Source: Sebaldella sp. S0638 (GTDB taxonomy: Bacteria > Fusobacteriota > Fusobacteriia > Fusobacteriales > Leptotrichiaceae). From it: a DNA stretch of 64,000 nucleotides. Below the pieces are notes generated by a model. It worked only from the letters and a program-made list of their open reading frames with translations. It ran no database searches and had not been told where the DNA came from. The position numbers were made by a program, and so were the translations under genes. The stretch is taken from the NCBI RefSeq assembly GCF_024158605.1, contig NZ_JAMZGM010000001.1:1-64000 (forward strand), read 5' to 3'. Below are positions 17,269 through 60,168 of the stretch, in pieces (position 1 is the stretch's first letter; each line of letters starts with the position of its first letter).

Positions 17269-17290
17269 CATATTCGTGCTTTGTACTTTC

Positions 17291-17355
17291 ACTCATAGAC
17301 AGTTATTTAAGGTAACCTGTAGAAACGTCCTGCCATATTCAGGACATATATGAGT
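17291..17355 (-). ncRNA. Purine (guanine-type) riboswitch aptamer of the pur operon
   Basis: Read on the minus strand: P1 ACTCATA/TATGAGT (17349-17355 with 17291-17297), P2 GTCCTG/CAGGAC with loop AATATGG, the core GTTTCTAC, P3 loop CCTTAAA, and the 3' core GTCTATGAG. By alignment with the known xpt aptamer the specificity base (position 74) is C, which predicts guanine/hypoxanthine, and the U at 51 is kept. The 5' arm of P1 touches the fhs stop codon, so transcripts from fhs read straight into this switch. Confidence 0.9.
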
Positions 17356-19016
17356 TAAAATAATCCAGTTATTTTTCCGTCTTTATCAATATCTATTAAT
17401 TCCGCAGCTGGTTTTTTCGGCAGTCCCGGCATATCTATTATTTCTCCTGCCATTGCCACTATGAAACCTGCCCCTGCTGCTATTCTTATCTCGTTTATTT
17501 TTACCGTAAATCCGTCGGGGCGTCCCAGAAGTGCCGGGTTATCCGAAAGTGATTTTTGGGTTTTTGATATACATACAGGCAGATTGCTGTACCCTAATTT
17601 TTCCAGTTTCAATATAGTTTTTCCTGCTTTGTCGGAAAATTCCACATTTCCTGCTCCGTATATCTCTTTAGCTATTTTTGTTATTTTTTCTTTTATGCTG
17701 AGATCCAGCTCATATAACGGTCTGTATCCTTCTGTTTCTTTTTCCATTTCATTTATCAGAATATCTACCAGTTCTTTTCCGCCTTCACCGCCTTTTTCCC
17801 ATATTTCGCAAAGAGCTGTTTTTACTCCTGCTTTTTCACAGTGTTCCTTAACAAAACCGATCTCTTTATCAGTATCAGTTATAAATTTATTTATTGCTAC
17901 CACTACCGGTATTCCGTATTTCTGCATATTTTCTATATGTTTATCCAGATTTGCCATACCTTCTTTTAATGTTTCCATATTTTCCACAGTGAGGTCGCTT
18001 CCCCCGCCGTGATGTTTTAATGCTCTTATTGTTGCTACTATTACTATTGCGTTAGGATTCAGTCCTGCTTTCCTTGCTTTTATATCCAAAAACTTCTCTG
18101 CTCCGAGATCAGCTGCGAACCCTGCTTCCGTTACCACATAGTCTGATAGTTTTAATGCCATTTTTGTGGCAAGTATAGAGTTACACCCGTGAGCTATATT
18201 TGCAAAAGGCCCGCCGTGTATAAATACCGGTGTGTTCTCCAAAGTCTGCACCAGATTCGGCTTGATTGCCTCTTTCAGCAGTGCAGCTGCGGCGCCTTCT
18301 ATTTTCAGGTCTTTTACTTTCAGCGATTCACCCTTATTGCTGTACCCAAAAATTATATTTCCTATTTTCTCTTTTAAATCAGGTATAGAGCTGGAAAGAC
18401 ATAATATTGCCATTATTTCCGATGCAACAGTTATCTGAAAAGACGACTCTCTGGGTATACCGTTTGCTTTTCCTCCCATTCCGATAACTATATCCCTGAG
18501 CGCTCTGTCATTCATATCAAGTACACGTTTCCACGTAATCTGTGTTATATCTATATTTAATTCATTACCGTGTTTCAAATGATTATCTATACATGCTGAA
18601 ATCAGATTATGTGCTGCTGTAATAGCATGCAGATCACCTGTAAAATGGAGGTTTATATCTTCCATTGGTACTACCTGTGAGTGTCCCCCTCCTGTAGCTC
18701 CGCCTTTTATTCCGAAAACCGGTCCTAAAGATGGTTCTCTTAGTGCTGCTATTGAATTATACCCAAACTTGTTAAATGCCTGTGTAAGTCCTACAGATAC
18801 TGTTGATTTTCCCTCACCGGGAGGTGTAGGCGTTATTGCTGTTACCAGTACAAGCTTACCGTCTTTTTTATCCTTATACTTTTCCAGTACACTCAGCTCC
18901 ACCTTCGCTTTATATTTTCCGTACTGTTCATATTCATCTTCTGTTAAACCTATTTTTTCTGCTATTTCGTTTATTTTTACCAATTTTGCTTTTTGTGCTA
19001 TCTCTATATCTGTCAT
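17355..19016 (-). CDS. fhs: Formate-tetrahydrofolate ligase (10-formyl-THF synthetase)
   Basis: Makes 10-formyl-THF from formate, ATP and THF. 553 residues, the normal size. P-loop [11 protein letters not shown] at about 63-73, followed by [11 protein letters not shown] and [15 protein letters not shown], all standard for the family; the C-terminal part ends with [17 protein letters not shown]. The product feeds PurN and PurH of the operon that follows directly, and the gene has its own guanine-riboswitch leader. Start ATG at 19016 follows a GGAGGAATC ribosome site. Confidence 0.97.
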
Positions 19017-19060
19017 GATTCCTCCTTATTTCATTAAATTAAAAATTTTATTGTAAGTAT

Positions 19061-19100
19061 AAAAGCCTAAGTATACACTGATTAATGTGTATACTTAGGC
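19061..19100 (-). terminator. Terminator-like hairpin in the fhs leader
   Basis: Perfect 14-pair stem: GCCTAAGTATACAC on the minus strand (19087-19100) pairs with 19065-19078, followed by TTTTATACTT. It lies between the guanine aptamer and fhs and also overlaps the end of the leader ORF, whose stop codon falls in the loop. Confidence 0.75.
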
Positions 19101-19192
19101 CCTGTGGAATAACTTTTTATATTTAAGTTATTATTATTTATAAATGCTATTAAAAATCCAAGTTTTATTTTATTTTTTCTAAAATTCTTCAT
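19082..19192 (-). CDS. Leader ORF (36 residues) in the fhs riboswitch leader
   Basis: ATG at 19192 is preceded by AGGAGG (19198-19203) at 5 bases, the strongest ribosome site around. It encodes 36 residues beginning MKNFRKNKIKLGF and ending GPKYTH; a hydrophobic stretch is followed by four Asn. The stop codon TAA (19082-19084) lies in the loop of the terminator hairpin, so the last eight codons are the 5' arm of that stem. A ribosome translating it would physically block the terminator. The ribosome site is itself overlapped by a possible CCTGA/TCAGG hairpin (19224-19228 with 19201-19205). No family is recognised; it could be a regulatory leader peptide, a real small protein, or chance. Confidence 0.5.
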   Translation of the reverse strand: MKNFRKNKIKLGFLIAFINNNNLNIKSYSTGPKYTH

Positions 19193-19266
19193 TACTTCCT
19201 CCTGATAAAGTGTCCCACATAATTCAGGCAAAACAAAGTAAGAGTTAATAAAGATTAACCTTGTTA

Positions 19267-19330
19267 TTCATAGCCGGTCATTTACGGTAACCTGTAGAGA
19301 CGTCCTGCCATATTCAGAACATATATGAGA
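19267..19330 (-). ncRNA. Purine (guanine-type) riboswitch aptamer of fhs
   Basis: Minus strand: P1 TCATA/TATGA, 5' core ATATG, P2 with loop AATATGG and CAGGAC, core GTCTCTAC, P3 loop CCGTAAA with GGTTA/TGACC, 3' core GGCTATGA. Very close in sequence to the aptamer before purL. Position 74 is C and 51 is T, predicting guanine. It starts about 15 bases after the predicted transcription start. Confidence 0.88.
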
Positions 19331-19348
19331 CTTATTCAATTCACATTT

Positions 19349-19377
19349 AGTATAACAGAAAGTTTTTAGTATTTCAA
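19349..19377 (-). promoter_or_regulatory. Promoter of fhs (and probably the pur operon)
   Basis: TTGAAA (19372-19377), 17-base spacer, TATACT (19349-19354) on the minus strand, placing the transcript start just before the guanine aptamer. I find no separate promoter between fhs and the pur riboswitch. Confidence 0.75.
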
Positions 19378-60046: not shown

Positions 60047-60069
60047 ACTAAGAAATATCTGAATCTAAA

Positions 60070-60132
60070 CTCCCTTCGCTAGCATTACCTAGAGCAGGTT
60101 AAACGGTATTTCTCAGCATTAAGCACCCGTGT
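60070..60132 (-). ncRNA. TPP riboswitch (THI element)
   Basis: Minus strand: GGGTGC..CTGAGA, then AACCTG, AGGTAATGCTAGCG and GAAGGGA. These are the core THI-box segments in order and at normal spacing (pyrimidine-binding CTGAGA, and the GCTAGCGAAGGGA end). Predicted to start within a few bases of the transcript start at about 60133. Confidence 0.95.
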
Positions 60133-60139
60133 TGACATT

Positions 60140-60168
60140 AGTATATAATATTTTACTGATAATAGCAA
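60140..60168 (-). promoter_or_regulatory. Promoter of the thi operon
   Basis: TTGCTA (60163-60168), 17 bases, TATACT (60140-60145) on the minus strand. Between it and the next promoter on the plus strand (60169-60380) I see no gene. Confidence 0.7.

Follow-up and report, generated by a model that had tools for sequence, protein, structure and literature searches.

The fhs locus of the window, the 64,000-nucleotide stretch of DNA analysed here, raises the question of how a guanine aptamer might govern a gene from which it is separated by a short open reading frame (ORF) that runs into a terminator. A riboswitch is generally assumed to have as its direct target either a terminator or the ribosome site of the gene itself; at this locus the target seems instead to be a throw-away ORF, and antitermination seems to fall to the ribosome on that ORF. 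The elements of the locus are as follows:

19349..19377, minus strand: promoter-like site, TTGAAA-17-TATACT, a consensus match only (10 of 12 positions)
19251..19348, minus strand: purine (guanine-type) riboswitch aptamer, RF00167, scoring 57.6 bits (gathering threshold 37)
19322..19331, minus strand: GUCUCAUAUA, holding the P1 5' strand, a 10-bp complement of 19221-19212; paired in the unconstrained fold
19227..19275, minus strand: predicted anti-P1 / anti-sequester hairpin (P1 3' side plus linker), from folding; 1 of 60 shuffled controls as strong
19212..19221, minus strand: UAUGUGGGAC, in the loop of the SD hairpin and complementary to the P1 5' strand, from sequence and fold
19192..19241, minus strand: SD-sequestering hairpin, UUACUU/AAGUAA plus CCUGA/UCAGG, from folding
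19198..19203, minus strand: AGGAGG, ribosome-binding site of the leader ORF, 5 bases 5' of the ATG at 19192
19082..19192, minus strand: leader ORF, 36 codons including the stop, translation MKNFRKNKIKLGFLIAFINNNNLNIKSYSTGPKYTH and stop
19061..19101, minus strand: hairpin of the terminator plus its U tract; the loop contains the stop of the leader ORF, from sequence and folding
19021..19026, minus strand: AGGAGG, ribosome-binding site of fhs, from sequence
17355..19016, minus strand: fhs, formate-tetrahydrofolate ligase, 553 aa, from its ORF

The preliminary description of this locus had read it as a guanine aptamer, an AGGAGG-led 36-codon ORF and then fhs, and both Rfam and the sequence bear out these parts and their order on the minus strand. 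The aptamer is presumably of the guanine type because a C precedes UAUG in J3/1, the position from which specificity is read, and its predicted ligand is guanine. The name fhs, which we take to be correct for 17355..19016, comes from the preliminary description and from knowledge of the family. A promoter consensus scan returned two sites in the whole stretch against a shuffle mean of 3.4, and the same two promoter hexamers are visible in three relatives (G087, G088 and G089). The terminator hairpin, GCCTAAGTATACAC / ATTAATCA / GTGTATACTTAGGC at 19100-19065, has a predicted energy of about -23 kcal/mol and is followed by TTTT; a simple consensus scan returned no terminator-like site at the leader, the U tract having four U before an A. 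The leader stop, TAA at 19084-19082, does lie in the terminator loop, whereas the 5' arm, which had been said to comprise the last eight codons, takes in only about five (from the last base of codon 31 to the first base of codon 36). CCTGA at 19228-19224 pairs with TCAGG at 19205-19201 over the ribosome site as had been claimed, and UUACUU/AAGUAA prolongs the hairpin outward.

The leader is an exception among the purine switches of the window genome. Three further purine aptamers in that genome belong to permease, guaA and purL switches; all three are compact: the gene begins within 80-120 bases of the aptamer, and none has an SD-led ORF that runs into a terminator. Guanine riboswitches of the xpt/pbuG type likewise have a compact terminator, and these, as well as the switches at L001 and L003, share the aptamer family of the fhs leader and have the gene or terminator directly after the aptamer, with no leader ORF between. 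The compact switches of the same genome, and the fact that short ORFs occur in leaders by chance, would suit an ordinary terminator-type guanine riboswitch in which the ORF is incidental. With the interior of the leader ORF shuffled 1000 times, 2.7% of trials left the frame open into the window hairpin; when the shuffle took in everything from aptamer to terminator (200 times), an ORF of this kind arose in 1.0%.

We examined 60 fhs loci, from 30 of the 33 genomes of the family and from 30 of the 59 matching genomes of the neighbouring family; the script found no fhs motif in two of them, and the remaining 58 were used. Our claims are confined to the Fusobacteriales. An aptamer core lies upstream of fhs in 20 of the 58 (four in g1, the window genus, eleven in g15, three in g19 and one each in g23 and g24), and a 21st aptamer-bearing leader, in a twelfth g15 genome (G027), was reached through its riboswitch locus. 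In all 21, from five genera and two families, an SD-like site leads into an ORF 26-47 codons long whose end lies in the terminator hairpin, with leader peptides such as MKKLKLKKIKLNYSTNINKKEGLSIY (G087), MLFVDKKRKKLKNRLKKVFINKGIIVNLRVDINNGLSVY (G019) and MLSHKRIKKKIVQNINNVVNQPKEKTMV (G025). Loss of the ORF or of its overlap with the terminator in related fhs leaders had been set beforehand as one outcome that would speak against the proposal, and both are present in 21 of 21 aptamer-bearing leaders. Across 23 leaders, of which three lack an aptamer, several positions of the terminator stem have changed on both sides with the pairing preserved, and the hairpin sequence GGYCTAAGT is exact in 17 of 20 fhs leaders.

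Three of the 38 aptamer-less fhs leaders (G044 in g20, G050 and G051 in g23) have the ORF and a similar terminator with no aptamer upstream: Rfam found none at the G050 and G051 loci, and the aptamer at the G044 locus lies downstream of fhs. The terminators of these loci (L105 and L106 for G050 and G051, L103 for G044) read GGTCTAAGT or GACCTAAGT. At G027:C1:1306331-1307985, fhs matches as two overlapping pieces, like a frameshift split, and the leader looks intact. Rfam found no second kind of aptamer in the window leader, 14 leader loci and 6 fhs loci, with the exception of a ZTP riboswitch, not a purine one, at about 1363-1442 of L111, upstream of fhs in a g16 genome. Its other matches were below threshold, namely an sRNA in L113 and a miRNA on the window terminator (14.7 bits against 101). 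A scan of genome contigs yielded 80 fhs loci, few of them from Fusobacteriales; the aptamer core was sought in L207 and L208 only, and the one match in this pair lies downstream of fhs in L207.

Among 20 fhs leaders the ORF frame is free of stops across the 592 codons from start to terminator, whereas the other two frames have 108 in 585 and 70 in 578 codons. Within lineages, which were grouped post hoc by leader likeness, the distance from start to terminator varies by multiples of three: 99, 102, 99, 93, 75, 99 and 80, 77, 80, 83, 80 in g15, 91, 88, 88 in g1 (with G087 apart at 63), and 100, 100, 100 in another lineage. All three frames relative to the shared hairpin sequence are used among lineages, and the fhs leader peptides differ between genera. 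A further 29 non-fhs leaders have 0 stops in 878 codons of the ORF frame against 116 in 870 and 111 in 862 in the other frames; as these leaders were chosen for an open ORF, only the contrast with the other frames is informative. In eight g13 purE leaders, variation at codon positions 1, 2 and 3 is 10/10/12 and hence without bias. The absence of a codon-position bias and the use of three frames argue that the frame rather than the peptide is conserved, and these patterns indicate that the reading frame is selected and the peptide is not. The comparative data are far stronger evidence than the window shuffles against a chance origin and indicate that the leader ORF is not a chance feature.

A leader encoding a functional small protein would have a conserved SD and start, as observed, and a TLFY-like stretch is visible by eye in some purL leaders. 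We nevertheless judge such a protein to be very unlikely, given that the fhs leader peptides diverge and lie in three frames relative to the terminator; the g13 purE leaders also lack the codon-position bias. An amino-acid attenuator of the trp/his type was rejected, as the peptides of the 21 fhs leaders, inspected by eye, share no run of control codons.

The survey was widened to 150 purine-aptamer loci, comprising 31 of 32 of the family, all 26 of g15, 88 from the rest of the order (among the matches listed, mostly top ones, with some skipped) and five fhs leaders. Gene classes were assigned by short motifs, by which four of 16 'purL' labels fell on adenosine deaminases and four fhs leaders (three of g19, one of g24) were binned by the script as 'other' or 'no gene found'. 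An ORF ending in the terminator is present at 17 of 17 fhs loci, plus the four g19 and g24 fhs leaders that the script did not place, and at 19 of 22 purE loci, 7 of 12 purL loci (the four mislabelled deaminases removed), one of two purM loci and the single glutamine synthetase-like locus. It was found at none of the 14 NCS2 permease, four guaA and eight adenosine deaminase loci (four labelled and four mislabelled). Other genes contribute 1 of 58 (in g14), and loci with no gene found 1 of 12, a spurious match inside a gene (L012). The total is 47 of 150 (46 without L012) against about 1.5 expected by interval shuffling, although the loci are related rather than independent and the expected counts are based on the last terminator of each leader only. 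By eye, L029 (purE) also has the layout, its SD having been missed by the pattern, and the ORFs of L028 (purE) and L130 (purM) stop just beyond the U tract; at L181, the first listed match is a spurious 16-codon ORF beside the real one of 39 codons. Among purL switches, those of g1 and g18 and one from g8 lack the layout, as does a single g12 purE switch.

Across these 150 loci the layout thus marks synthesis operons (fhs, purE, some purL, purM) and not permease, guaA or deaminase switches. It occurs in 15 genera with an aptamer, or 16 counting the aptamer-less G044. The arrangement first noticed at fhs therefore extends, in relatives, to many purE and some purL switches; it is conserved and more general than the window alone shows. 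Fourteen purE leaders (L007, L022, L025, L030, L124, L125, L127, L128, L131, L138, L139, L140, L146 and L161) have a pair of terminator-like hairpins: the first is compact and follows the aptamer, and the second comes after an SD and ORF. At L017 (G053), what a short motif marks as a putative glutamine synthetase gene is preceded by a purine aptamer, then a leader ORF of 47 codons and a terminator. The purL leader peptides of L066, L068, L069, L072 and L075 have a loose TLFY-like stretch (by eye), and their terminators start with TCTAAGT in five of five.

Folding was used to ask which part of the leader the aptamer could reach. In 20 of 20 fhs leaders the terminator forms with a predicted probability of 0.96-1.00 with or without P1 enforced, and no antiterminator was predicted in any of them, so direct antitermination by the aptamer, as in a terminator-type switch, was rejected. 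With an ORF that is also far above chance, both in the counts for the 150 related loci and in the frame test, we consider the ordinary switch with an incidental ORF to be quite improbable. A ribosome at the stop codon with a 12-nt lead would lower the hairpin from between -12.7 and -27.5 kcal/mol to between 0 and -6.5 kcal/mol (20 leaders), although with a 9-base lead the G053 hairpin retains -10.6. As no aptamer-driven antiterminator is predicted, translational control is the simplest route. The terminator is predicted to fold regardless of the aptamer, and a ribosome at the stop codon would abolish or cripple it, so the ribosome site of the leader is the most likely point at which the aptamer acts.

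The predicted link between aptamer and SD is clearest near the window. In the four window-genus genomes the probability that the SD is unpaired, free and with P1 enforced, is.79/.19,.70/.11,.73/.17 and.50/.17 (the last being G087), and shuffled linkers reached these differences in 1, 1, 2 and 3 of 200 cases. Across all 20 leaders the equilibrium difference exceeds 0.3 in five, is 0.05-0.14 in three and about zero or negative in twelve; the equilibrium test fails outside the window genus and G024, and in G053 the difference is opposite in sign (-0.15, matched by 99 of 100 shuffles). In a scan of transcript lengths, the P1 probability is 0.17-0.87 at first and falls below 0.1 at some length before the SD in 20 of 20 leaders. 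In all 20 this fall goes beyond the shuffle mean (average z -1.9); between 0 and 17 of 60 shuffles match it, and it is singly striking in some leaders only. Recovery of P1 near or after the SD is predicted in g19 and part of g15. In six g15 leaders, UCAUAUAUACC with GGUAUAUAUGA or a near variant shows, by eye, the same complementarity to the P1 strand. The models therefore predict an aptamer-independent terminator, competition between P1 and anti-P1, and masking of the SD that is clear in the window genus and one other leader only. The combined switch of the preliminary description gains from the lack of an aptamer-controlled antiterminator in 20 of 20 leaders and from the SD link in the window genus, while that link is weak or absent in most others; overall its interpretation is supported.

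We propose that this is a guanine riboswitch whose output is translation of the leader ORF, the ribosome on the ORF being the antiterminator, and give this reading a probability of about 0.62. Without guanine, the nascent linker would pair with the P1 strands of the aptamer and leave the leader AGGAGG open; a ribosome would then translate the ORF and, at or near the stop codon, cover the terminator stem, so that the polymerase would read into fhs. With guanine, P1 would hold, the freed linker would pair with AGGAGG and the leader would stay untranslated; the terminator would then fold and transcription would stop before fhs. The parts, their order, the conserved frame and the conserved overlap of stop and terminator can be read from the sequences themselves; we infer translation of the leader, blocking of the terminator by the ribosome and the direction of control. 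The added relay step would make transcription responsive to translation.

Available passages of a study in E. coli report that terminator efficiency dropped from about 90% to less than 10% once a stop codon had been shifted to 5 bp ahead of the terminator, that translation reduced a terminator located 30 bp into an ORF by only about 10%, and that a terminator near the beginning of an ORF is hardly affected without polymerase pausing (PMC4824070). The start-to-terminator distance in fhs leaders is 61-137 nt, so that, if the early-terminator result as given there applies, RNA polymerase must be slow or pause (PMC4824070). Together with the aptamer-less leaders that retain the ORF and terminator, this limit suggests that the unit may have an input of its own, and that it may itself also sense something.

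The leader ORF of E. coli pyrBI runs into a terminator, and a ribosome that follows closely prevents termination, the signal being UTP-dependent pausing. The fhs leader ORF enters its terminator in the same way; unlike the fhs leaders, pyrBI has no aptamer, and its signal is UTP-dependent pausing. The fhs unit could accordingly be an autonomous attenuator of this kind, in which read-through is set by the spacing of ribosome and polymerase (for example by ATP or GTP supply) and the aptamer is an extra or separate input. The three fhs leaders with the unit and no upstream aptamer fit this explanation, as do the many purE leaders in which the unit sits after a separate compact riboswitch terminator, an arrangement that makes direct aptamer output possible there. 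Leader ORFs are also A-rich: their A content averages.503 (n=46), whereas two controls, the opening 60 nt of 138 downstream genes and the opening 90 nt of 35 window genes, give.403 and.409. This suits a response to purine nucleotides and is only suggestive, as A-richness may just prevent structure in the RNA or be a by-product of the open frame, and some leaders are not A-rich (.33-.34 in L017, L069, L142 and L177). In aptamer-bearing fhs leaders, moreover, folding predicts no direct influence of the aptamer on its terminator, so that the leader SD is the most likely thing for the aptamer to act on, and we regard the autonomous attenuator as rather unlikely.

The guanine riboswitch acting through leader translation and a nucleotide-sensing leader might also be combined. 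For de novo purine synthesis in Fusobacteriales we tentatively raise, as a possibility that we doubt, a two-input device in which the leader ORF would read purine nucleotide supply via polymerase speed and the upstream guanine aptamer would veto leader translation. If so, control would be built on the coupling of ribosome and RNA polymerase, as pyrBI reads UTP. PRPP-guanine tandem riboswitches are likewise reported to give two-input control of purine genes that includes a guanine aptamer, their second input being another aptamer (PMC5912903); no second kind of aptamer was found in 14 Rfam-scanned loci here.

For the M. tuberculosis ppe2 B12 riboswitch with its uORF uPPE2, the relevant passages describe a relay mainly by termination-reinitiation at an overlapping AUGA (PMC11260477). 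There, as is proposed here, ligand binding is predicted to hide the SD of a short uORF, and downstream expression depends on translation of that uORF (PMC11260477). The order of riboswitch, uORF and gene is the same, and leader translation could in principle feed fhs by reinitiation; unlike in ppe2 as described there, the fhs leader ORF ends in an intrinsic terminator and its stop lies 65 bases from the gene start, with no stop/start overlap. This gap of 65 bases, together with the AGGAGG that fhs has of its own and the terminator between, makes such a translational relay scarcely plausible to us. The S. meliloti metA SAM-II switch, in the passages available, has an intrinsic terminator downstream for which its authors could predict no aptamer-driven antiterminator, and so resembles the fhs leaders in joining a translation-controlling switch to such a terminator (PMC9373788). 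Unlike in the fhs leaders, metA translation starts at AUG2, beyond the terminator, and those passages mention no leader ORF that ends in it (PMC9373788).

Among the matches listed, in a largely open literature, no paper appears to describe a purine aptamer that is separated from its terminator by a leader ORF. Each half of the arrangement is known; the new element is the predicted coupling of a guanine aptamer with a terminator operated by the ribosome, which is retained in frame at operons for purine synthesis across 15 genera in one order. Distant terminators behind riboswitches in other bacteria are worth checking for leader ORFs. Transcription attenuation may be overrepresented in Fusobacteria, according to the passages available of a study with small samples (PMC2258182).

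Two further riboswitches lie in the window. A second purine aptamer at 17276-17373 (minus strand) shares sequence with the 3' end of fhs, whose stop is at 17355, and lies ahead of purL (17191-13439), with a compact terminator and without a leader ORF; fhs is also placed between two purine aptamers at L094 (g24) and L108 (g19). At 60054-60140 (minus strand) there is a TPP riboswitch aptamer (60.5 bits).
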